Virus record (IMG/VR): IMGVR_UViG_3300035183_001074
Coordinates: 1-32,408 of that record
DNA from: a virus
DNA: 32,408 nucleotides
Direction: 5' to 3' (one strand)
The notes under the pieces were generated by a model. That model did not search any database. It was not told the DNA's origin and worked only from the letters and a program-made list of their open reading frames with translations. A program made the translations under genes and the position numbers. This document shows positions 3,569 to 28,164 of this stretch, piece by piece. Positions within the stretch are counted from its first letter, which is position 1. Each line of letters opens with the position of its first letter.

Positions 3569-4104
3569 GGGCGTCCTTCCCGGCGCAAGCGCTCCCGATA
3601 GGCGCGCGCCTCCGCCTCGATGGCCGCACGTTCCTCGCGCGGAGCCGGCTCGGGCGCACGAAACGTCGAGGCCGTGCCACCCTGCGCGAGATGCGCCGAG
3701 AGCTCGCCGAGTTGTGCGCGGAAGAGGCCGAGACTCCGACCGCCGGTGCGCGCGGTCGGAATCTGCCACCACGTCGCGATCAGGGCGCGGAGTTGGTCTT
3801 GGGGATACGACGTGATGAGCACGTCGAGATGCTCGAGGTCGCGCGTCGAGGCCAGCAGCGGCAACCGCGCGCCGTGGCGCGCCGCCGTCTGGCGCCACGT
3901 GTCCCACAGCGCGGCGAGCGTCCACGAGGGCGACGGCGCGATCGTCTGGGCTGGCGGCGGCACCGCCGGCGCGCCCGCGCGATCGAGCCAGGCCAGCAGC
4001 TCCTGCCATGCGGAATAGGCGAGGTCACGCGGGGTGTCCGGCGCCACGCGAACATACGCCGTATACGTCTCCGATCCGACGGTCAGGGTGACGCGACGTG
4101 TCAT
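3565..4104 (-). CDS. Hypothetical early protein (179 aa)
   Basis: ATG 4104 overlaps the exonuclease stop as ATGA. It begins as a beta segment (RRVTLTVGSETYTAYVRV). A Pro/Ala-rich linker near residues 45-60 follows, then a Trp-rich helical domain (LAALWDTWRQTAARHG, then LEHLDVLITSYPQDQLRALI and GRSLGLFRAQLGELSAHL). It ends in a charged Arg/Glu helix. The YP..QLRALI pattern and position between the exonuclease and replication-like genes suggest DNA metabolism, but this is inference and no family is recognised. Confidence 0.65.
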   Translation of the reverse strand: MTRRVTLTVGSETYTAYVRVAPDTPRDLAYSAWQELLAWLDRAGAPAVPPPAQTIAPSPSWTLAALWDTWRQTAARHGARLPLLASTRDLEHLDVLITSYPQDQLRALIATWWQIPTARTGGRSLGLFRAQLGELSAHLAQGGTASTFRAPEPAPREERAAIEAEARAYRERLRREGRP

Positions 4105-4772
4105 GCGCCGTCTCCCGGGAGGCGCAGCAGGCCCAAGCGCTGCGCGAGCCACCACGTCTGTTGCACGTCCGCGTGACAGTGGGCGCGCACGTCCTCCCAC
4201 GCCTCCGCCTCGACGAGCCGCGGAATATCGGCGCCGTCACCGACGGCGATAATCGGGCACCCAAAGCGGCGCGCCATCGAGGCGAGCGACCGCGAGAGCA
4301 CCGGTGTGGGCTCTTGGCCCGCACAGGTGAGCCGATCATAGAGATCCACGACCGTCGCGTTGCCGTACCGGCGGAGATCGACGCGGTCGTAGATCGACAT
4401 CGCGACGGCCAAGATGCGCGACCGCGCCAAGAGCACGGGCAGATCGAAGCGCAGGAGGTTGTAGCCGAGGACGCGCGTGCCGGGCGCGATGATCTCTTCG
4501 GCGACGCGCCGAATAAGCCGCACCTCGTCCTCGACGGTTGGGGCGAGGGCCACCGTGGTCTCCCCGGATTCGGTGGCCCACCCGATGGCGACAATGCGGC
4601 AGGTGTAGGGGTCGAGGGCGAGGCGCTCGCGCCGTTCGGCCTCGCGTCGGGCCAGATCGGCGGCAATCTTGTCGGGGTCGCGGAGGTGCTTGGCCGGCTC
4701 GACCGGATCCAGCCAGGCTGAGGCGTCCGGCAGGGGTGCCGTTTCGAGATCCAGGCAGATGGCGCGCCGCAT
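4101..4772 (-). CDS. DnaQ/PolB-type 3'-5' exonuclease (223 aa)
   Basis: ATG 4772 follows a full AAGGAGGT site. The three DEDD-family motifs are visible. ICLDLETA near the N-terminus supplies D8 and E10 (Exo I). VLGYNLLRFDLPVL supplies N105 and D110 (Exo II). AHCHADVQQT near residue 198-206 supplies D202 (Exo III). Such enzymes remove nucleotides from 3' ends. With a neighbouring ERF annealing protein, the likely role is end processing for recombination or replication. The length fits a stand-alone exonuclease of the group related to the polymerase-B exonuclease domain. No polymerase domain is attached. Confidence 0.85.
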   Translation of the reverse strand: MRRAICLDLETAPLPDASAWLDPVEPAKHLRDPDKIAADLARREAERRERLALDPYTCRIVAIGWATESGETTVALAPTVEDEVRLIRRVAEEIIAPGTRVLGYNLLRFDLPVLLARSRILAVAMSIYDRVDLRRYGNATVVDLYDRLTCAGQEPTPVLSRSLASMARRFGCPIIAVGDGADIPRLVEAEAWEDVRAHCHADVQQTWWLAQRLGLLRLPGDGA

Positions 4773-4782
4773 GAGCACCTCC

Positions 4783-5523
4783 TTAGAAGGGCGTGATAGC
4801 GTCTGGTGCGGGCTCAATCGCCGCGGCATCCGGCGACTGGAAGAGCTGCACGATCTCGTCGTACCGCGAGACCGGAATCTCGCGCGAGGAGCTGAAGCCC
4901 AGCGCGATCAGCTTCGCCCTGATCTCCTCGTCCGTCCAGCCGGTCGCCTTCGCGATCGCGTAGAGCCGCTTGCGCTGCGGCTCCGAAATGAGGCGTGGCG
5001 AGGTGGGCGGCGTGGGCGTTGGCGGAGGAGGAGGCGTGGGCGGCTCCGGCTTCGGCTCGGCCGACTGCACGGCCGGCGTGACCGCCACCGCGTCGTCGTC
5101 CTCGCCTCGCGCGGCCACGCCCAAGAGGGCGGTCAGGCCGTAGCGGCGGGCATAGGTCACGGCCGACCCTTTGCCCTGCGCGCCGAGGGTGGGATCATAG
5201 GGGACGAGCATGGACACCCCGACCCACTGCTCGCCCTTGGCGATGACCGTGAATGCCCCGGCCTGGCCCTCCGCCTCGATCGGGCACTGGATGAGGGCGA
5301 TGCCGTGCTCGGCCAGCGCGGGCCGCACGGCGTCCAACACGTCCGCGAGGTCCGCGTACGCGTAGGTGTAGCGCCCACCCGTGCGCCGCGAGATGACCTC
5401 GGCGGTGCGTTCCTTCATGATGGGCGCAAACTTCGGCTGCGCCGCCGCCAGGGCCTGCATGAGCTCGCCGACGGCGTCGCTCCGGTAGAGGCCCGGAATC
5501 CCCCGATACGGCTCACTGGTCAT
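4783..5523 (-). CDS. erf: ERF-family single-strand DNA annealing recombinase (246 aa)
   Basis: ATG 5523 is preceded by GGTGGAG. The N-terminal two thirds carry ERF-family hallmarks: ELMQALAAAQPKFAPIMKE, then YTYAYADLADVLDAVRPALA, and GKGSAVTYARRYGLTALLGV near residue 130. A Pro-rich linker (about 175-190) leads to a C-terminal helical domain (EPQRKRLYAIAKATGWTDEE) of the kind seen at the end of several ERF and RecT-like proteins. The protein anneals complementary single strands during phage recombination. It overlaps the HTH gene by 11 bases, and the exonuclease follows 10 bases after its stop. Confidence 0.9.
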   Translation of the reverse strand: MTSEPYRGIPGLYRSDAVGELMQALAAAQPKFAPIMKERTAEVISRRTGGRYTYAYADLADVLDAVRPALAEHGIALIQCPIEAEGQAGAFTVIAKGEQWVGVSMLVPYDPTLGAQGKGSAVTYARRYGLTALLGVAARGEDDDAVAVTPAVQSAEPKPEPPTPPPPPTPTPPTSPRLISEPQRKRLYAIAKATGWTDEEIRAKLIALGFSSSREIPVSRYDEIVQLFQSPDAAAIEPAPDAITPF

Positions 5524-5728
5524 GGCTAGGCTCCACCTCGTCCACATCGGCCAAGAGGACGTGGATCGGCAGCCCGAAAGCCGCCTCCAACGCCGCGGCG
5601 CGCCGCGCGCGCGGCCGGACGAGCCCGCGTTCATAGAGCGAGATGTCGCTTTGGCCCATGCCGGTCGCCTGGGCCACGTGATGTTGCGTCCAGCCCCGCC
5701 GGACGCGTTCGAGTCGCATCTGTCGCAT
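5513..5728 (-). CDS. Xre/Cro-type helix-turn-helix regulator (71 aa)
   Basis: ATG 5728 follows GAGGAGGA. The protein is little more than one HTH_3 domain: MRQMRLERVRRGWTQHHVA, then ATGMGQSDISLYERG (recognition helix region, about 25-39), then AALEAAFGLPIHVLL. The short acidic tail lacks a C-terminal cleavage or oligomerisation domain, so it is Cro-sized rather than CI-sized. It probably binds operators in the divergent region at 6269-6378 and may shut down the leftward operon in which it is second. That target is inferred. Confidence 0.85.
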   Translation of the reverse strand: MRQMRLERVRRGWTQHHVAQATGMGQSDISLYERGLVRPRARRAAALEAAFGLPIHVLLADVDEVEPSHDQ

Positions 5729-13497: not shown

Positions 13498-14400
13498 ATG
13501 GCGAATGAGATGACGACCACCACCCTGACCGAGGTCATCGAGCGCGAGGCCTATGCGGCGAGCGTGCTGTACTTCGCCGAAGTGCCCGGCGTCTCGAACT
13601 TCGTGGCGCGGATGGACCTGACCGGGCAGCCGACGCTCACCGCGCGCTTCCCGATCTACGACAAGGTGAGCGCGCAGGCCGTCGCGGAGATGACCGACTT
13701 CACGACGAATGCGGCGCTCGATCCGACGGCGGTCGATGTGACCGTCAGTGAGCACGCGATCCGGTTCGTGATCACGGATCTGGCGGCGGGCGCGGCGCGC
13801 GACCAGATTTTCTCGGCGGCGCAGCGCGAGTCCTCGATCGTCGGCCGCGCCGCGGCCGAAGCGCTCCAGCGCCGGCAGGATCAGGATCTGACGGCGCTGT
13901 TCTCGGGCTTCGATACCTCGACGGGCTCGAACAGCGGCGCCATCACCTCGACGCTGCTCATCCAGGCGATCGGGCAGCTCGACATCGCGTCGATTCCGCG
14001 CAGCCCGCGGACGATCGTGCTGCATCCGTTCCAGTGGCGGACGCTCATTCCGGTCTTCGACGAGGCGAGCACGTACGGCGTGCAGGGCCAGCAGGTGGTC
14101 ACGAGCGGCCTGGTCTCGCAGAATCTGTACGGCGCGAACCTCTTCGTCACCGCGAATGTCGCCACGGCCACGGTCTCGACCAGCACGGTCTACGCCGGGG
14201 CGGTGATGCACCCGTCGGCGATTGCGCTCGCGACCAAGGGCGACATGCCCTCGTTCGAGGTCGAGCGCGATGCGTCGCTGCGGGCCTTCGAGGTCGTCGC
14301 GACCGGCGTGTGGGGCGAGGCCGAGTACCGGGGCGGCGCCACCACGGCGGGCCGCGGCGGGGCCGGCGTGATGCTGTATTCGAACTCGACGGTCGCCTAA
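13498..14400 (+). CDS. Major capsid protein (300 aa, HK97-fold type)
   Basis: The ATG follows AAGGA by 9 bases. The protein is Ala/Thr-rich, soluble and highly regular. Features that fit a capsid subunit are VIEREAYAASVLYFAEVPGV at the N-terminus (N-arm), a middle helix around SSIVGRAAAEALQRRQDQDL (spine helix) and PRTIVLHPFQWRTLIPVFDE near residue 170. A C-terminal block (ALATKGDMPSFEVERDASLR) then ends in AEYRGGATTAGRGG. It starts 31 bases after the scaffold stop. A large hairpin follows the gene. No maturation-protease site is obvious. Confidence 0.85.
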   Translation: MANEMTTTTLTEVIEREAYAASVLYFAEVPGVSNFVARMDLTGQPTLTARFPIYDKVSAQAVAEMTDFTTNAALDPTAVDVTVSEHAIRFVITDLAAGAARDQIFSAAQRESSIVGRAAAEALQRRQDQDLTALFSGFDTSTGSNSGAITSTLLIQAIGQLDIASIPRSPRTIVLHPFQWRTLIPVFDEASTYGVQGQQVVTSGLVSQNLYGANLFVTANVATATVSTSTVYAGAVMHPSAIALATKGDMPSFEVERDASLRAFEVVATGVWGEAEYRGGATTAGRGGAGVMLYSNSTVA

Positions 14401-14478: not shown

Positions 14479-15027
14479 ATGGACTTTCGTCCCGTACCGC
14501 TGGATCTGGCCTGGGTGACGGGCCGATCGGATCTCAAGGCCATCTATCAACGCCCCGTGCTCAGTTGGGCCGGATCACGCGTCGTCCAGGCCACGGATGC
14601 CGAGGGTCGGCCCCGGTGGGATCTCACGGCGGGGCTGCCGCTGCGGCGGCACATGCACTGGGTCGCCAAGGGCTACCAGTACGTGACGCTCGCCGATGCC
14701 GAGTCGCTGCGCGCGCCGGAGGTCGTCGGATCCCTCCAAGCGCGCGGCCTGCACTGGCGGGACTTTATCTGTGATCCGGCGACGGGATCGCCCTGGTCGT
14801 ACGAAGCGTATCGCGCGTGGGCCGACCAAGCGGCGTCGGAGGCCTCCTCGCAGCAGGATGCGGTGATCGCCCAGTATGGCGCGGAGGTCGTCCGGGCGGT
14901 CGCGAGTGCGCTGACGGGGCAGCGGGCGCCGGATCCCCCCGCGCTGGATGTCGCCCCACCGGTACCTGAGGATCCCCTGCCGGTGCGTCGCGGGCCGGGG
15001 CGGCCCCGGAAGGTGCCCGTGCCGTGA
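14479..15027 (+). CDS. Hypothetical head-region protein with AT-hook-like C-terminus (182 aa)
   Basis: ATG 14479 follows AGGAGGG. The sequence begins MDFRPVPLDLAWVTGRSDLK and stays globular to about residue 120 (RRHMHWVAKGYQYVTLADAE, DFICDPATGSPWSYEAYRAW). The C-terminus, after a Pro-rich linker, is RRGPGRPRKVPVP, which contains the GRPRK core of an AT-hook. A role at the head or connector is suggested only by position. The basic tail could touch packaged DNA. Confidence 0.7.
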   Translation: MDFRPVPLDLAWVTGRSDLKAIYQRPVLSWAGSRVVQATDAEGRPRWDLTAGLPLRRHMHWVAKGYQYVTLADAESLRAPEVVGSLQARGLHWRDFICDPATGSPWSYEAYRAWADQAASEASSQQDAVIAQYGAEVVRAVASALTGQRAPDPPALDVAPPVPEDPLPVRRGPGRPRKVPVP

Positions 15028-15827
15028 GGCTCGCACTCGGGATTATTCTCGCGCATGGATTTCCCGCGCCGAGCGAGTTCTGGCTGAGCCTCTTTCGGGT
15101 CCTCGAATCCATCCGGCGCGGCGAGGGCGGCGTCACCGCGTTGCGGCTTATTCATTCGACCGCGTTTCCCACCGATGTCGCGCGGAATGAGATCGTCCGC
15201 GTCATGCTGGACGAGAGTGAGGCCGACGCGCTCCTCTTTCTCGATGCCGATATGACGCATCCGCCCGATATTGCGGCCCGGCTGCTGGCGCACAATCAGC
15301 CGGTCGTGACCGGCCGCTACCATATGCGCCGGCCGCCGTATCACGTGGTCGCCTACGTGAAGCACCGCACGCTCACGCATGCCCACGCGTATGCGCCCGT
15401 TCATGTCGGCCGAGGCCTCATCGAGATCGAGCGTGGCGGCGCGGGGGCGCTGCTGATTCGCCGCGAGGTGCTCGAGCGCATCCGCGCGCGCATCGGCGAC
15501 AACTGGTTCCGGTATCAGCGCGGCCCACAGGCCCCACACGACTACACGGTCAGCGAAGATTTCTGGTTCTATCAGCAGGCCCGTGCGGCCGGCGCACGGT
15601 GCTATCTCGATTGGGACTGCGAGTGCCAACACTTGCAGCTCGCGGCGATTGATGGCACATGGCAGCGGGCCTATATCCAGGCGCAATTCGACGCGCTCGC
15701 GAGCATGACGCCGGAAGCGCGGCAGCGGGTGGCGGATAGCCTCGTCGTCTGTGGCTATCCGGAGGGGCTGCGCCTGCCGACGGGCGAATGGGTGCCGCCG
15801 TATCAGGTGACGGAGGGCGAGCGATGA
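15024..15827 (+). CDS. Glycosyltransferase-like protein 1 (GT-A type, 267 aa)
   Basis: The GTG start overlaps the previous stop by 4 bases. VARNEIVRVMLDESEADALL leads into LFLDADMTHPPD, where D74-A-D76 is the DxD metal/nucleotide-sugar motif of GT-A enzymes. YTVSEDFWFYQQARAAGARC (E179, D180) supplies the acidic catalytic-loop pattern, and H204 follows. Two other genes here (15824 and 18637) share this whole layout. The enzyme should transfer a sugar from a nucleotide donor. The acceptor is unknown, but its place between head and connector genes suggests a virion protein. No membrane helix is seen, so it would act in the cytoplasm. Confidence 0.8.
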   Translation: MRLALGIILAHGFPAPSEFWLSLFRVLESIRRGEGGVTALRLIHSTAFPTDVARNEIVRVMLDESEADALLFLDADMTHPPDIAARLLAHNQPVVTGRYHMRRPPYHVVAYVKHRTLTHAHAYAPVHVGRGLIEIERGGAGALLIRREVLERIRARIGDNWFRYQRGPQAPHDYTVSEDFWFYQQARAAGARCYLDWDCECQHLQLAAIDGTWQRAYIQAQFDALASMTPEARQRVADSLVVCGYPEGLRLPTGEWVPPYQVTEGER

Positions 15828-16711
15828 TCGCGGCCGATCCGCTGGGGGGGGCGGTGATTCCGCCGCCGGCGCCGCGGCCCGCGGTCATCTGGCTCGGCGT
15901 GCCGACGTTTGGCGTGGTCAGTGTGCCCTGGCATCTCGCCATGCTGCAGCTCCAGACGCCCCTCAATCGCACCGTGCGGCACTGTTATGTCGCCGGTCGC
16001 GAGGTCGGCGAGGCCCGCAACGATCTGGTCCGCCGCGCCCTCGCCTATCTGGGGCCGAGCGGCGAGCGGGTGTCGCATGTGCTGTTCGTCGATGACGATG
16101 TGATCGTCCCGGCCGATGCCATCGCGCGGCTGCTCGCGCATGACCTGCCGCTCGTGAGCGGGCTCTATTATGCGAAGACGGAGGCCGAGCAGCCGCTCAT
16201 CCTGGGCCCGATGGGCACGGGCACCCGGCGCGACTGGCAGCCCGGGGATCTCGTGGCGTGCGAGGCGCACGGCATGGGCTGTACGCTCATCGCGCGCGAG
16301 GTGTTCGAGGTGCTTGATCCGCCCTGGTTTGCGACGGCGATGGCGTGGGTGGGATCGGATGCGGACGGTGCGCCCATTTGGCGCGCCGAGAGCGAAGATG
16401 TCTGGTTCTGCCGGCGCGCCCGTCGCGCCGGGATCCAGCCCGTGGTCGATACGGGCCTCTTTTGTTGGCACTGGTCGCTGACCGAGCATCGGGCCTATCC
16501 GCTCGCGCGGTGGCGGGAGGCGGTGCGGCGGGGCGAGGCGCCGGCCACGGCCTATGTGCCGGACGCGGCGCCCTGGGATGGGCGCAGTATGGCCCCGCCG
16601 GCGGCCCGGGCTGGCCCAGGTGAGGCGCTCGCCGTCGCCGCGGCCACGAGCCCCTGGGAAGGCGACGACGCGTCGGAGAGCCGCCTGCGCGGCCAGGAGC
16701 CCCATGCGTGA
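15824..16711 (+). CDS. Glycosyltransferase-like protein 2 (GT-A type, 295 aa)
   Basis: ATG 15824 overlaps the previous stop as ATGA and follows GGAGG. After a Pro-rich N-terminus comes VIWLGVPTFGVVSV. EARNDLVRRAL and HVLFVDDDVIVP (D90-D92) then match gene 15024, followed by LVSGLYYAKTE, GMGCTLIAREVFEVL and AESEDVWFCRRARRAG (E191, D192), with H216 after that. A run of eight G lies at codons 7-10 (15844-15851) and would put the rest out of frame if its length changed. The disordered, Ala/Pro-rich last 50 residues are unique to this copy. Confidence 0.8.
   Translation: MIAADPLGGAVIPPPAPRPAVIWLGVPTFGVVSVPWHLAMLQLQTPLNRTVRHCYVAGREVGEARNDLVRRALAYLGPSGERVSHVLFVDDDVIVPADAIARLLAHDLPLVSGLYYAKTEAEQPLILGPMGTGTRRDWQPGDLVACEAHGMGCTLIAREVFEVLDPPWFATAMAWVGSDADGAPIWRAESEDVWFCRRARRAGIQPVVDTGLFCWHWSLTEHRAYPLARWREAVRRGEAPATAYVPDAAPWDGRSMAPPAARAGPGEALAVAAATSPWEGDDASESRLRGQEPHA
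15844..15851. repeat. Run of eight G near the 5' end of a glycosyltransferase gene
   Basis: The run lies 20 bases after the ATG of the second glycosyltransferase gene. Runs of this length are prone to slippage, and a change by one base would stop expression. In this copy the gene is in frame. Confidence 0.85.
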
Positions 16712-17195
16712 GGGCCTGCGCGCCTCGGTCGAGGCGGCCCGGGGCCGCCTCGAGGGCTACCCCAAGGGCAGCGTGGTCCTCTGCGCCGCCTGTGGCCGGC
16801 CCCTCTATCGCCTGCGGCGCGCGATCGAGCCCGGCGCCTCCGTCGCGCGGAGCGTGACGGCCTATGGGCCCGTCACCCCGGCCGATCTCGAGGCGTTGGC
16901 CGAGCTGGCTGGGTTGGCGCCCCCGGAGGCGGAGGTACGGGCCGCCCGGCAGGCGTATTGTGCCCGCATCCCGGAGGTGCGGACGGGCCAGCCGGCCTGC
17001 TGTCCGTTCTGCGGACTGTCCTGGGTGCGCGTCTGGGCACCGACCGCCTCGGAGTTGGTCGACCGCGCCTATACCTGGACCCTCGTCGTCCTACCACCGC
17101 TCGGCCGCGTGGGACGACGGATTCGGCGCCGCTGGCGCGTGGAGCAGGCCCAATGTCGGAGCGTCCCGTCGTCCTCGCCGTCGGCTGCGGGCTGA
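16704..17195 (+). CDS. CxxC zinc-binding-like protein in the modification cluster (163 aa)
   Basis: ATG 16704 follows AGGAG and overlaps the previous gene by 8 bases. VVLCAACGRPLYRLRR (C27, C30) and ACCPFCGLSWVRV near residue 100 form two Cys knuckles separated by a helical stretch (ADLEALAELAGLAPPEAE). This is a split zinc ribbon. The last part is basic. I recognise no family. Its position between a glycosyltransferase and a methyltransferase suggests it may be a partner of these enzymes, or a small structural protein. Confidence 0.65.
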   Translation: MREGLRASVEAARGRLEGYPKGSVVLCAACGRPLYRLRRAIEPGASVARSVTAYGPVTPADLEALAELAGLAPPEAEVRAARQAYCARIPEVRTGQPACCPFCGLSWVRVWAPTASELVDRAYTWTLVVLPPLGRVGRRIRRRWRVEQAQCRSVPSSSPSAAG

Positions 17196-17797
17196 AACAG
17201 CGCGTCGAGGACTATGGCTTGCGCCTGGGCGGCCCCGGCGCGCCGCCGACGCGCGCGGACGAGGTGACCTTGGTCACGCTCGATGCGGATCCGCGCGTGC
17301 GGCCGCAGATCGTCTGCGAGCTCGGGCGCGATCGCATCGCGCTCCCGGACGATTCGGTGGACCTGATTCTCGCCATGCACGTGCTCGAGCATATCGGGCG
17401 TCAGGGTGAGATCGAGGCATGGTTCCACGCCTGGGGCGAGCTCTATCGGGTCGCGAAACCGGATGCGCGGTTGGAGTTCGAATGCCCCTACTTCAGCTCG
17501 CTGTGGGCGTGGGCCGATCCGACGCATACGCGCGCCATCAGCGAGATGACGTTCCTCTATCTCGATCAGGATGCCTACCGGCGGCCGGGATCCGCCATCC
17601 CGCGGTATCGGCCGCCGTGTGATTGGATGATCGTGGGCCTGAATCTGCGGCCCGATGTGACGAACCCGGAGGTTCGGGCGCGCGAGCCCGTCTCGTTCCT
17701 GCACGGCGTCCTGCGCGCCCGGAAACCCTTCGCCCCGTGGTGGGCGGACCAGGAGGACACCAAGCATGGCGTGGTCCAGCCTGTCGCTGGTCACTGA
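17153..17797 (+). CDS. Class I SAM-dependent methyltransferase (214 aa)
   Basis: ATG 17153 follows GGAG by 8 bases. VVLAVGCGLK (motif I, about 6-15) is the SAM-binding loop in a shortened form. LVTLDADPR carries the acidic residue (D44). LPDDSVDLILAMHVLEHIG (about 64-82) and ELYRVAKPDARLEFECPYF (about 96-114) are motifs IV and post-IV of small-molecule or sugar methyltransferases. ADPTHTRAIS (about 121-130) is a stretch often seen in enzymes encoded beside glycosyltransferases. The substrate is unknown; a sugar added by the neighbouring enzymes is a reasonable guess. It overlaps the next gene by 32 bases. Confidence 0.8.
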   Translation: MSERPVVLAVGCGLKQRVEDYGLRLGGPGAPPTRADEVTLVTLDADPRVRPQIVCELGRDRIALPDDSVDLILAMHVLEHIGRQGEIEAWFHAWGELYRVAKPDARLEFECPYFSSLWAWADPTHTRAISEMTFLYLDQDAYRRPGSAIPRYRPPCDWMIVGLNLRPDVTNPEVRAREPVSFLHGVLRARKPFAPWWADQEDTKHGVVQPVAGH

Positions 17798-18647
17798 CGC
17801 GGATCTCGGGGCGCTCGAGCCCGAGGCGATCGCGGGCACCTGGGGCGCGGCCTCGTGGCCGACGGCGCGTGACGAAGCCGTGCGCGATCTCCGCATCTGG
17901 CTCGAAGCGGATTATCCCGAGATCCCCGATGTCGCCGATCGTATTCGCGATCAGTGGCGGCCGAGTCGCGTCTGGAGCGCGACGGGTGGCGTCTGGACGG
18001 ATCGCACCACGGAAGCGAGCTCGCTGGACGCCGATGATCTCGCGCTCGCCAGTGTGTTCGCCACGCCGAGCAGCGATGCGCTCTATGTCGGCCTCGGCCA
18101 AGCCTTCGAGGGGCTCTTCGTCCGCATGCTCGCCACGCGGAACAGTAATGCCTCGACCCTCACGGCCTCGTATTGGGGCCCCACGGGTTGGACGAGTCTG
18201 GGCGCCGAGGATGGCACCAAGCAAGGATCGGCGACGTTTGGCCGCACCGGTCGCGTCAGCTGGGCGATGCCCATCGACTGGGAGCTGCGCGAGCTCCAGG
18301 ACGAGGGCATCGTGCGATACTGGGTGCGGCTTACCGTCTCGGCCGCGTTGAGCAGCGGCACGGCCGCGGGGCAGATCCTCCCGATCCGGCCGCCCACGGG
18401 GCTCCGGCGCGTCGCCACCTATCTCGCCCTGGCGCATGTCTGTCGAGGCCTCGCGCCGAAGGCCTCGGAGCCCGCGTTCTGGACGGATCGGGCCGCGTGG
18501 TATCACGACCAGGCCACGGCGCTCTACGCGCGCCTCCGGTCACAGGGCGGCATCCCCATTGATCTCGATGGCGACGCGTCGGTGAGCCCGCCGACGGAAA
18601 TCCCCTCGCCGAAGACGCGCAGCGTCAAGGTGTACCGTGCCGGATGA
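17766..18647 (+). CDS. Probable neck/connector structural protein (293 aa)
   Basis: ATG 17766 follows AGGAGG by 10 bases and lies inside the methyltransferase end. The first 60 residues are helical (TARDEAVRDLRIWLEADYPE). A beta-sandwich-like middle (ALYVGLGQAFEGLFVRMLA, YWGPTGWTSLG, WAMPIDWELRELQDEGIVRY) follows, then a helical block (VATYLALAHVCRGLAPKASE). The order resembles phage head-tail connector proteins with an added beta domain. Its place before the tail terminator gene agrees. No enzyme motif is visible. Confidence 0.6.
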   Translation: MAWSSLSLVTDADLGALEPEAIAGTWGAASWPTARDEAVRDLRIWLEADYPEIPDVADRIRDQWRPSRVWSATGGVWTDRTTEASSLDADDLALASVFATPSSDALYVGLGQAFEGLFVRMLATRNSNASTLTASYWGPTGWTSLGAEDGTKQGSATFGRTGRVSWAMPIDWELRELQDEGIVRYWVRLTVSAALSSGTAAGQILPIRPPTGLRRVATYLALAHVCRGLAPKASEPAFWTDRAAWYHDQATALYARLRSQGGIPIDLDGDASVSPPTEIPSPKTRSVKVYRAG

Positions 18648-19413
18648 CCGCCGCTGTCTCGTGGCCGTCTGCACGAATTGGCCGTCGATCCCGACGCCGA
18701 CGGCCATGTCGCTGATGGAGCTCGGCTGGGGCGATCGCATCCCGCGCGCCAAAGCCGAGACGGGCTTTGCGGCGATTGACTTCCTGTGGGCGCGCGGCTT
18801 CCCCCGCGTCGACGCGCTGCGGAATTGGGCCGCGCGGCAGGCCCTCGCCGCGGGCTATTCGCATCTGCTCTATCTCGATGCGGATAATGTATGGCCCACC
18901 GATGTGCTCGCCCGCCTGCTGCGTCACGCGGATCGCGATATCGTCGGCGGCCTCTACGTGATGCGCGGTGAACCGTACGCGCCCGTCGCCCTCGTGCGCG
19001 GGCACCGCCAGCCGGATAGCGACATTACCGCCTACGAATATGACCACGAGGCCATCTGGGCGCAGGCGCTCCGCGAGGTCGAAGTCCTCGGTATGGGCTG
19101 CACGCTGATTCAGACTCAGTGGTTCGCGCGTCTGCCCGGGCCGCACTGGTTCGCGTACCGCGATGATGCGGAGGGCTGGCCAGCCGTGACCGAAGATGTG
19201 CCGTTCTGCGAGGCGGCGCGGGCCGCGGGCGCGCGGATTTGGCTCGATCCGACGATTGTGTGCGGGCATGTCACGCAGGTGCTGACCGATGTCCGGTGGC
19301 ACCAACGCTGGCTGCAGGCGCAGCGCACGCCACCCCCGGTACCCACGCGGGTCACCTGGCGCGAGCAGGTCGATCCGTCGGCCGCGGACCCGGCACCGGC
19401 CGCCCACGGATAA
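18637..19413 (+). CDS. Glycosyltransferase-like protein 3 (GT-A type, 258 aa)
   Basis: The GTG at 18637 follows AAGGTG and overlaps the connector gene by 11 bases. VDALRNWAARQAL, HLLYLDADNVWPTDVLARLL (D81, D83), VGGLYVMRGEPYAP and GMGCTLIQTQWF match the two earlier copies in order. WPAVTEDVPFCEAARAAGAR (E186, D187) and H211 complete the set. The invariant RN, DxD, G-x-G and ED positions show common descent, yet the copies differ elsewhere, so they probably use different acceptors or donors. Confidence 0.8.
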   Translation: MPDDRRCLVAVCTNWPSIPTPTAMSLMELGWGDRIPRAKAETGFAAIDFLWARGFPRVDALRNWAARQALAAGYSHLLYLDADNVWPTDVLARLLRHADRDIVGGLYVMRGEPYAPVALVRGHRQPDSDITAYEYDHEAIWAQALREVEVLGMGCTLIQTQWFARLPGPHWFAYRDDAEGWPAVTEDVPFCEAARAAGARIWLDPTIVCGHVTQVLTDVRWHQRWLQAQRTPPPVPTRVTWREQVDPSAADPAPAAHG

Positions 19414-19414
19414 G

Positions 19415-19843
19415 ATGGCCGCGACAACGCTCTCGGCGATTCTGACGCGCATCCGAGCGGTCTGCGAAGCGTCTCCGTTGTTGCTGACGCCCGCGAGCGA
19501 GCCGTTTTCTCATGACCGCGAACCGACGCTCGCAGTCGATCAGGCGTATGTCGTCCTTGATGAGGGCCTCGAGTCGCATCGGTCGCTTACCAATCAGGCG
19601 GCCGCGCGGATCGACCGCGTGACGATCCTCGTCGCCCGCCGGCTCGGCGCCGATCCGGCGACCACGATCGGCGAGCTCGAAGACACGCTGCTCACGCTCG
19701 AGCGCGCGATCAAGGCGGATGGCCCCGCGGGCAGCTATCATGCGGAGATTCTGAGCCGGCGCGTCTCGAGGCCGGCGGGGAAAGAAATCGCCCTTGGCAG
19801 TCTCACCGTCACCGTGGATTATGACTTGAGCGAGGCGCTATGA
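19415..19843 (+). CDS. Probable tail terminator / head-tail joining protein (142 aa)
   Basis: ATG 19415 is one base after the previous stop. The sequence starts with a helix (LSAILTRIRAVCEASPLLLT), has VDQAYVVLDEG, RVTILVARRLG and a helix (TTIGELEDTLLTLERAI), and ends with strands (ILSRRVSRPAGKEIALGSLT). This strand-helix-strand order, size and place just before the tail tube gene match tail terminators of siphoviruses. The assignment rests on position and predicted fold, not on a signature motif. Confidence 0.6.
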   Translation: MAATTLSAILTRIRAVCEASPLLLTPASEPFSHDREPTLAVDQAYVVLDEGLESHRSLTNQAAARIDRVTILVARRLGADPATTIGELEDTLLTLERAIKADGPAGSYHAEILSRRVSRPAGKEIALGSLTVTVDYDLSEAL

Positions 19844-20043: not shown

Positions 20044-21129
20044 ATGACGGTCTCGGCCCGCCAGATTCGAGTTGGCGTCAACAAGGCGACGTCCGGCAGC
20101 TGGGGGACCGGCGCCGCGGTCGCCACCGCGGTCGGCGCCGGCGACGGCGTCTACGTCTTTGATGACCTCGGCATCCAGATCAGCCGCAACTACACGCGCG
20201 ATGAAAGCGCGGGACAGGCCTTCATCGGCAATGTGATGGGCGCGACGACGAGCGCGATCTCGGGCGCCATCCCCTCGTTCCTGCACTATCATGACAGCTT
20301 CCAGAATGTGCTCTGGGCGCTGACGCTCGGGACGGGAGGCACGACGCCCACTCAGCTCGGCACGACGACGGCCTACACGAATACGTTCGAGCCGGCGGGG
20401 TCCGCCGGCAAGAACGGCAATTACGCGACGATTGTGCGGGATGTCTCGCATGGCATCCTCGAGGTCCCGGGCGCGAAGTTCACGGGCTTCGAGCTCTCGT
20501 TCGGCCAGGATGGGCGTGCCGAAATCCGCTGGTCGTTCCTGGGCGACACCGAAAAGCGGGATTCCACGATCAATACATCAGCGCAGATCGCGGCGTTGAC
20601 GTTCCCGACCCTGGGCCTGCGTGCCCACTTCGATGATGTGACGTTTCGCGTGAACGCCCAGAGCGGCGGCGCGCTGGCGGCGAGTGATGCCGTGAAGATC
20701 ACCTCGCTGCGCGTGCGGTACACGCAACCGCTCGACACCAAGTTCGTCGCGGGCCAGCTGACCATCATCGAGCCGCTCGAAGATGGCTGGCCCGAGGTCG
20801 AGATTGAAGCGGAATTTGCGCGCTTCCTGAGCACGGATCTCTCGATCTTCCGTGACGCGCATACGAACGACACGCGGCTCAAGGCCGACATCACGTTCAT
20901 CGGGCCGACACTCGCCACCACGAACTACGGGCTCCTCTTCCAGTTCCCGAACCTGTATATTCCCCCGGGCGGCTTTACGTTGGCCGTGCCGGGCGGTGCG
21001 GGCCAACTCGTGCCGCGCGTACGCCTGATGGCGCTGTCGACGACGACGGCGCCCACGGGCATGACCGGCGTGACCGTGCCCATGCGCGTCGTGACCACGG
21101 GCGTCTCCAGCACCAACCCCTTCGCGTGA
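20044..21129 (+). CDS. Major tail (tube) protein (361 aa)
   Basis: The ATG follows AGGAG by 7 bases. The protein is rich in Thr, Gly, Ala and beta strands, starting RQIRVGVNKATSGSWGTGAA. It repeats strand pairs typical of tail-tube folds (VPGAKFTGFELSFGQDGRAE, then VKITSLRVRYTQPLDTKFVA, WPEVEIEAEFARFLS and LKADITFIGPTL). Rings of this protein form the tail tube. It is longer than minimal tube proteins (about 200 residues), so an added Ig-like or surface domain is possible. It lies between the terminator and chaperone genes, the standard order. Confidence 0.8.
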   Translation: MTVSARQIRVGVNKATSGSWGTGAAVATAVGAGDGVYVFDDLGIQISRNYTRDESAGQAFIGNVMGATTSAISGAIPSFLHYHDSFQNVLWALTLGTGGTTPTQLGTTTAYTNTFEPAGSAGKNGNYATIVRDVSHGILEVPGAKFTGFELSFGQDGRAEIRWSFLGDTEKRDSTINTSAQIAALTFPTLGLRAHFDDVTFRVNAQSGGALAASDAVKITSLRVRYTQPLDTKFVAGQLTIIEPLEDGWPEVEIEAEFARFLSTDLSIFRDAHTNDTRLKADITFIGPTLATTNYGLLFQFPNLYIPPGGFTLAVPGGAGQLVPRVRLMALSTTTAPTGMTGVTVPMRVVTTGVSSTNPFA

Positions 21130-27006: not shown

Positions 27007-27554
27007 CGACACGCCAAGCGGCGCGGGTGGCCTGGGTGCGGCAGGCCCTCTGGCCGGCGACCCGGGCGCTCTTGCCGCCTGAGATGGGCTCGGATGATGC
27101 CCTGGCCCTCTTGGTCGCCATCGGCTGGCAGGAATCCCGGTGGTCAGCACGTCGGCAGATGGAGGGGCCCGCGCGGGGGTTTTTGCAGTTCGAGCGCGCC
27201 GGCCTGGATGCCGTGCTGCGCCACCAGGCCACGCGCCGGCCGGCCACGTCCCTGGCGTACGCCTTGGGCTATCCGGCCGACGTGGCGGCCCTCTGGGACG
27301 CGATCGCCGACAATGACGTGCTGGGCCTAGGCCTCGGACGTCTGTTGCTCTGGAGCCTGCCTGAGCGGCTGCCGGGGCCATCCGAACCGGATCGGGGCTG
27401 GGCCCAGTATCGGGCCGCCTGGCAGCCCGGACGCCCGAGGCCCGAGACATGGCCCGAGGCGTGGGCCATTGGCTGGGATCAGCGGGAGGACCGCCATGCT
27501 CTACGTGGCCGTCGCCGGCACGTGGGCGCAGCACGACGCCGACACGGCGATTGA
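27003..27554 (+). CDS. Lytic transglycosylase / lysozyme-like protein (183 aa)
   Basis: The GTG overlaps the previous stop. LLVAIGWQESRWSARRQMEG (with E44 in the QES motif) followed by ARGFLQFERAGLDAV matches the core of lysozyme-like transglycosylases: the catalytic Glu, then the G-x-x-Q-F segment. The remaining helices (LAYALGYPADVAALWDAIAD, LGLGLGRLLLWSLPE) fit this fold. It would cut peptidoglycan for host lysis or for tail-driven entry. The last 30 residues overlap the next gene by 59 bases and are basic. No holin or export signal is evident. Confidence 0.7.
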   Translation: MTTRQAARVAWVRQALWPATRALLPPEMGSDDALALLVAIGWQESRWSARRQMEGPARGFLQFERAGLDAVLRHQATRRPATSLAYALGYPADVAALWDAIADNDVLGLGLGRLLLWSLPERLPGPSEPDRGWAQYRAAWQPGRPRPETWPEAWAIGWDQREDRHALRGRRRHVGAARRRHGD

Positions 27555-28164
27555 CCCGTGGCGGGATTGGTGGCACCCACAATCCCACTATGCCGCCGAG
27601 CTCCGGGTGTTGGGGTGGACGCCACTTCGGCCCGATCCCTTCCGGTGGTCCACGGATCTCGATGGCACATGGCTGCAGCGCCTCGTCCAGCGCCGACGCT
27701 GGGGCGATTGGCTGGCCGCCGCCTATGCCCTCTGCTACTACTGCGATCAGGCGCCCCAGGGCGCGCGCCCGAGAGGCCCCCGCAGGCCGGCGGATCGTCC
27801 CGTGCTGATCGCGCATTCACACGGCGGCCAAGTCGCCCTCCTCGCCACGGGTCTCTTGGGTCTCTCTGTCGCCGGCCTCGTCACCGTCTGCACGCCCGTG
27901 CGCGCCGATGTGCTGGATCTCGTCGGCGCCGACGCGCCGCAGCCGTGGTGGCACCTCTATAGCGATGGCGCCGATCGCTGGCAGTGGCTCGGCGAGTGGG
28001 GCGATGGCCTGTTGCGCGTCGCGCGCCAGATGCCCCCGCCGGCGATCAATCTCCCGGCTGCCGTCGGCTTCGGTCATACTGGCCTGCTGACGACCCGCGC
28101 GGGGCTCCGCGTCTGGCCCGATCTGCTGCGGCGCCTCGAGGCGGCCGTATCGCGGGAGCCATGA
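27496..28164 (+). CDS. Alpha/beta hydrolase, esterase- or LysB-like (222 aa)
   Basis: ATG 27496 follows GGAGGA by 5 bases, so the longer frame at 27469 is not needed. The first strand MLYVAVAGTW, the nucleophile elbow IAHSHGGQVALLA (S108), the strand AGLVTVCTPVRAD, an Asp in LYSDGADRW (D157 or D160) and a His in GFGHTGLLT (H194) give a complete catalytic triad. The enzyme probably hydrolyses an ester in the host envelope. LysB enzymes of mycobacteriophages do so, but have a different motif around the Ser. Position next to a lysozyme-like gene supports an envelope role. Confidence 0.75.
   Translation: MLYVAVAGTWAQHDADTAIDPWRDWWHPQSHYAAELRVLGWTPLRPDPFRWSTDLDGTWLQRLVQRRRWGDWLAAAYALCYYCDQAPQGARPRGPRRPADRPVLIAHSHGGQVALLATGLLGLSVAGLVTVCTPVRADVLDLVGADAPQPWWHLYSDGADRWQWLGEWGDGLLRVARQMPPPAINLPAAVGFGHTGLLTTRAGLRVWPDLLRRLEAAVSREP

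Follow-up and report, generated by a model that had tools for sequence, protein, structure and literature searches.

A candidate virion-glycosylation cassette with an exchangeable methylation step between the capsid and tail genes of uncultured soil phages

We have analysed the entire IMG/VR virus record IMGVR_UViG_3300035183_001074 (32,408 bases, hereafter the window), which derives from a soil-type phage and may be partial. Its block at 15024–19413, holding three glycosyltransferase (GT) genes, GT1, GT2 and GT3, together with a methyltransferase (MT) gene, is probably a virion-glycosylation cassette with methyl capping that is co-expressed with the head–tail genes. Seven genes spanning 14479–19413 overlap head to tail, by 4, 4, 8, 43, 32 and 11 bases, with the capsid gene in front and the tail-terminator position behind, an arrangement that suggests coupled translation; the first of these overlaps joins GT1 to the gene of a small protein that directly follows the capsid gene. 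The genes described in an earlier, sequence-only reading of this DNA are all present and open. Its sole correction is the start of GT2, which is most likely the ATG at 15824 rather than that at 15788, giving an ATGA overlap with the GT1 stop codon.

The glycosyltransferase trio

GT1, GT2 and GT3 are paralogous (35–38% identity in alignment, with within-window matches at E 2e-13 and 3e-12), and each matches the PHROG 1574 profile over most of the protein (E 5.6e-11 for GT1, 6.7e-12 for GT2 and 9.3e-17 for GT3). The RN, DxD, GxG, ED and late-His motifs on which the sequence-only reading relied are real: across 31 homologues from viral contigs, R54, D74xD76, Y99, G139xG141, D179, F182 and H203 (GT1 numbering) are invariant, while N55 and E178 reach 90% conservation or more. 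An alignment of nine GT2 orthologues likewise contains DDD, HGMG, ED and H motifs. Pfam sees the trio weakly; GT3 scores 17.3 bits to PF00535 (Glycos_transf_2), below the gathering cut-off of 23.3, the Pfam scan returned no match to this family for GT1 or GT2, and several homologues of the trio match it at up to E 1.6e-7. None of the window's cassette proteins received an informative name from NCBIfam.

When the profile of the 31 homologues was compared with solved structures, the archaeal-virus enzyme STIV A197 (PDB 2C0N) came first (E 3.6e-7), followed by Mnn9 and procollagen galactosyltransferase. AlphaFold2 (AF2) models of GT1 and GT3 had predicted local distance difference test (pLDDT) values of 92.6 and 90.2, respectively. 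The best PDB match of the GT1 model is again A197 (E 2.3e-10), which stands seventh among the PDB matches of the GT3 model (TM-score 0.71 by target length, E 6.3e-10). Foldseek assigns both models a probability of 1.00 against A197, COLGALT1, LH3, Mnn9 and polypeptide GalNAc-transferases (ppGalNAc-T), and the matches other than A197 are mostly protein-modifying GT-A enzymes (COLGALT1, LH3, ppGalNAc-T). Fold prediction, proposed earlier as the means of refuting a GT-A assignment, has therefore upheld it: as modelled, GT1 and GT3 have the GT-A fold with a metal-binding DxD, and GT2 is predicted to share the fold by its homology to them. In the profile alignment, D179 of GT1 falls within the ED that pairs with GEDVYF of A197, where Asp151 is the catalytic base (PMC4187194). 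No membrane helix is apparent in any cassette enzyme (maximum 19-residue hydropathy 0.8–1.4).

Conservation of the cassette and the proposed methylation step

Relatives of the window were gathered with four probes, namely the capsid, GT1, MT and GT2. In about 20 distinct uncultured contigs that encode a related capsid (down to 54% identity), GT1 lies 3' of the capsid gene and parts of the cassette are kept; gene order is maintained among them, and the GT genes lie in the capsid–tail interval in every relative. Contig 3300036768_001403, identical to the window across the cassette, was excluded as an independent case. GT3 is present in all six sequences that extend beyond the connector gene (the window, L005, L024, L026, L029 and L037). 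The three GTs fall into separate clades with support of 99/97 (GT1), 100/99 (GT2) and 98/97 (GT3), so that the trio goes back a long way and did not arise by a recent triplication; as phylogenetic evidence, this suggests only that the copies are non-interchangeable. GT1, GT3 and MT are under purifying selection comparable with that on the tube and capsid genes, the ratio of nonsynonymous to synonymous polymorphism (pN/pS) in close pairs being 0.04, 0.07 and 0.21 for the cassette genes, compared to 0.09 for tube and 0.07 for capsid.

The sequence-only reading had also placed a CxxC protein and a class I methyltransferase between the GTs, and both are there, the former with two CxxC pairs. The window MT scores 26.6 bits to Pfam Methyltransf_11 (PF08241; cut-off 21.2) and carries the motifs HVLEHIG and WADPTH, while an 11-member alignment shows conservation of GCG and of the acidic end of strand 2. 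A second family, PF04989 (rhamnosyl O-methyltransferase/CmcI), finds no match anywhere in the window record and occurs in the cassette interval of seven relatives, six of them detected by Pfam scan at E 2e-37 to 7e-56 (L016, L022, L028, L031, L032 and L048) and the other, L029, with a model built from those. One such PF04989 protein falls below the NCBIfam rhamnosyl O-methyltransferase cut-off (103.5 vs 400 bits). Twelve distinct cassettes could be read far enough for comparison (the window, L016, L022, L024, L025, L026, L028, L029, L031, L032, L037 and L048), and every one has a methyltransferase of the window type or of PF04989, the latter in 7/12 and both in L022.

The presence of two unrelated methyltransferase families in one slot argues that a methylated product is selected for. 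Members of PF04989 are known, as the family description has it, for sugar O-methylation, which suggests a glycan as the target. This exchange of MT for PF04989 is the best evidence that the added sugar may be methylated, and it lends independent support to the methyl-capped glycans proposed in the sequence-only reading. GT2 is present in all seven PF04989 cassettes as compared to one of the five without PF04989 (Fisher p = 0.010, relatedness uncorrected); because PF04989 is restricted to GT2-bearing cassettes, the methyl group may be placed on the sugar that GT2 adds.

Two contigs have further features of their own. L032 encodes an extra methyltransferase (15052–15654) and a GT-B-type glycosyltransferase (PF13524; 17716–18792) among its tail genes, and its glycan machinery may be larger. 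In the MT homologue of L043 (9992–10507), the DPTH motif is directly followed by CFSRDTEILTENGW...; this resembles the beginning of an intein placed within the active-site region.

Proposed virion glycosylation and its alternatives

In the proposed mechanism, the soluble GTs would draw activated sugars from the cytoplasm of the host and, at about the time when particles assemble, transfer them in a metal-dependent reaction onto a phage structural protein, whether the capsid, the tail tube or some neighbouring decoration protein. GT1, GT2 and GT3 would differ in job, adding successive sugars or serving different acceptor sites, after which MT, replaced or joined in relatives by PF04989, would methylate one of the glycan's sugars. 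The particle would probably benefit by being protected, or by binding differently, outside the cell. Since the GTs are soluble, with no apparent membrane segment, and are made alongside the head–tail proteins, glycosylation of virion proteins in the cytoplasm is the most plausible activity, and the candidate acceptors are the capsid, the tail tube and the small protein directly 3' of the capsid gene. The virion decoration suggested in the sequence-only reading is made probable by the position and overlap of the genes, by their conservation and by precedent. For this uncultured soil phage lineage, some relatives of which are binned with Acidobacteria, we tentatively advance a more specific scheme: an O-methylated virion glycan built by three old, non-redundant GT-A enzymes, and methyl-capped, maybe on the GT2-added sugar, in a step for which class I MT and PF04989 are exchangeable. 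A search of genome contigs with the capsid profile gave two matches in Acidobacteria metagenome-assembled genome contigs, too weak to claim a host.

To our knowledge, virion glycosylation has been shown in only a few phage isolates. The nearest annotated layout is that of the cluster J mycobacteriophages (Omegavirus), exemplified by Wanda, whose gp15–gp24 similarly place a number of GT genes and a single MT gene between the major capsid and connector genes, in the order capsid, GT, kinase, MT, GT, GT, GT, protease, GT, connector. The first GT of Wanda (gp15) matches PHROG 1574 and is itself a member of PHROG 12406, a family that GT3 of the window also matches. The Wanda cassette differs in including a kinase and a Zn-protease, in having its other GTs in other PHROGs, in an MT with no detectable relation to that of the window, in its capsid lineage and in its larger genome. 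Direct common descent of the two cassettes was considered and rejected: their MTs are unrelated and, of the Wanda GTs, gp15 alone reaches the threshold applied for PHROG 1574. More probably the two were assembled convergently out of a shared pool of GTs. A search for the same gene order, suggested in the sequence-only reading, has thus turned up parts of it in the uncultured relatives and a similar layout with other enzymes in Wanda, so the implied unusualness of the layout did not hold.

Precedents of other kinds concern the chemistry. STIV A197, alike in fold and motifs, has been proposed as the enzyme that glycosylates the coat protein of STIV, and replication fails when it is lost (PMC10551542); it is a single enzyme of an unrelated icosahedral archaeal virus, with no linked methyltransferase in the literature cited here. 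Two papers citing earlier work report phage-encoded GTs that glycosylate virion proteins, namely capsid and tail tube, in the mycobacteriophages Che8, Corndog and Myrna, with single enzymes proven, e.g. Che8 gp110 and Corndog gp38 (PMC12363180, PMC11256854). In chlorovirus PBCV-1, A064R combines two rhamnosyltransferase domains with a third domain, a methyltransferase acting on the terminal rhamnose of the capsid glycan (PMC7019647), so that the scheme of virus-encoded GTs plus a sugar O-methyltransferase capping a viral capsid glycan exists in nature. We liken it to the window by scheme and not by homology, A064R being one fused three-domain protein of a eukaryotic algal virus.

Several points weigh against virion glycosylation with methyl capping. 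Che8-type F1 phages have GT genes near the genome 3' end (PMC11256854), so gene location alone is no rule for virion glycosylation, and it is from gene position only that we infer the virion location of the sugar. The window MT belongs to a generic methyltransferase family and could have a target other than a sugar. Pfam scans of the window recognised no genes for making sugar nucleotides, and donors would thus have to be supplied by the host. Finally, the capsid family occurs without the cassette in L018, L047 and the distant HTVC111P and DSL-LC06, which marks the cassette as an addition with no core assembly function.

The alternative that survives best accepts virion glycosylation and has MT acting on a structural protein or some other target instead of the glycan; we consider it unlikely, on balance. 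The window MT matches only generic methyltransferase models, and its position with respect to the GTs varies, the gene lying upstream of GT1 in L013, L024 and L026. Against this stand the sugar O-methyltransferase/CmcI family protein in relatives' cassettes, with one type or the other in each, and the direct adjacency of MT to a GT2-like gene in L069, L095, L102, L112 and L129. There is a smaller chance that the enzymes are merely located in the late operon and modify the host surface (exopolysaccharide, an O-antigen-like glycan or teichoic acid), blocking superinfection or changing how a receptor is used. Phage GT and MT genes often modify the host surface, as in gtr operons, and moron/host takeover is the PHROG category of several related families, 34859 and 12406 among them. 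Yet no enzyme has an apparent membrane helix, no membrane GT or flippase was among the Pfam matches of the genes scanned, the genes overlap the connector gene and keep to the capsid–tail interval in every relative, and late structural timing would serve receptor masking poorly.

That the enzymes glycosylate and methylate phage DNA, yielding hypermodified bases, is very improbable. Some phage DNA glucosyltransferases do have a GT-A fold, but the cassette lies within the structural operon, apart from replication genes, and the record, which may be incomplete, contains neither a thymidylate synthase homologue nor a TAGT-type DNA glycosyltransferase, both of which were detected in control genomes; a Tet/JBP search of the record also gave no match, as did its positive control. 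Least credible is a role for the proteins as structural or assembly factors that have the GT-A fold and no activity, which would fit their constant location among head–tail genes and the predicted status of the activity, but not the DxD, ED and late His kept strictly in 31 divergent proteins, as one would expect of catalytic residues, nor the accompanying methyltransferases.

Genomic setting and wider occurrence

The late region is of the tailed-phage type, running from terminase through portal, a Mu-F-like protein, the scaffold position, capsid, cassette and tube to tape measure and tail genes (Table 1). Capsid and tube, so named in the sequence-only reading, are borne out: the capsid profile matches solved HK97-fold major capsid proteins (9jwb at E 1.7e-9, 4bml at E 1.1e-5, and 8i4l), with capsid relatives found at 51–77% identity, and the tube gene matches Phage_tube_2 at E 2.7e-6. 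The names connector and tail terminator follow from position, with no support from solved structures or Pfam families. The putative connector is kept in five relatives plus one fragment; the putative terminator has no profile match to the DSL-LC06 terminator. In the CxxC protein, which has only weak DksA/TraR-like matches, the first CxxC and the CPxC pair are conserved in full-length orthologues, one fragment aside.

Table 1. Cassette genes and flanking structural genes of the window
Feature	Position	Strand	Basis
HK97-fold major capsid protein; candidate acceptor	13498..14400	+	Profile matches to solved capsid proteins
Small conserved protein directly 3' of capsid gene	14479..15027	+	Alignment of 13 homologues; in nearly all relatives
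GT1, GT-A-fold glycosyltransferase (modelled)	15024..15827	+	AF2 model, PDB structural match, PHROG 1574
GT2, GT-A-type glycosyltransferase paralogue	15824..16711	+	PHROG 1574; alignment of 9 orthologues; fold by homology
CxxC/CxxC protein, zinc-ribbon-like	16704..17195	+	Conserved CxxC and CPxC pairs
MT, class I S-adenosylmethionine-dependent methyltransferase	17153..17797	+	Methyltransf_11 above cut-off; 11-member alignment
Putative head–tail connector, named by position	17766..18647	+	Weak profile match to same-position gene of DSL-LC06
GT3, GT-A-fold glycosyltransferase (modelled)	18637..19413	+	AF2 model, PDB structural match, PHROG 1574
Putative tail terminator, named by position only	19415..19843	+	Between connector/GT3 and tube gene
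Tail tube protein; candidate acceptor	20044..21129	+	Phage_tube_2 match

Four relatives encode a small protein of ∼130–140 amino acids with a conserved DEATTDVA segment between GT1 and GT2 (L022:9867–10283, L048:8211–8666, L029:1873–2334 and L028:11247–11933), and the same protein stands behind GT1 in L008 (7557–7955). It was not found in the window, which has no further small protein between GT1 and GT2; in the relatives it is possibly a capsid decoration protein and glycan acceptor. The distant capsid relatives HTVC111P (L050:14876–15283) and DSL-LC06 (L051:15449–15934) have a gene annotated as an acyl- or acetyltransferase beside baseplate/tail genes, perhaps another virion modification. 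Elsewhere in the window, an alpha/beta hydrolase-like gene (27469–28164; weak Pfam match) lies among the tail genes, and the early region carries, on the minus strand and divergent from the late genes, a recombination pair of an ERF single-strand annealing protein and a PolB-type 3'–5' exonuclease (4104–5634).

Viral contigs often carry GT2 relatives, of which 249 candidates were confirmed. In contigs outside this lineage, their nameable neighbours include tail fibres, head–tail connectors, terminase, an SU10-type capsid and methyltransferases, a descriptive tally with no background control. In the five contigs where MT adjoins a GT2-like gene, none with a detectable match to this capsid family, the MT homologue is directly upstream, which suggests that the MT–GT pair may be portable among phages. 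Among annotated phage genomes, tblastn found no match to GT1 and only distant matches to GT3. PHROG 1574 itself is a widespread family listed as of unknown function, and the trio suggests that its members are GT-A glycosyltransferases.

This kind of cassette is already known, whereas its enzyme set and the exchangeable methyl step are new. If our reading is correct, a conserved cassette in which methylation has been replaced non-homologously would point to selection for methylated virion glycans in soil phages. It would also name individually testable enzymes and give a functional hypothesis for PHROG 1574.

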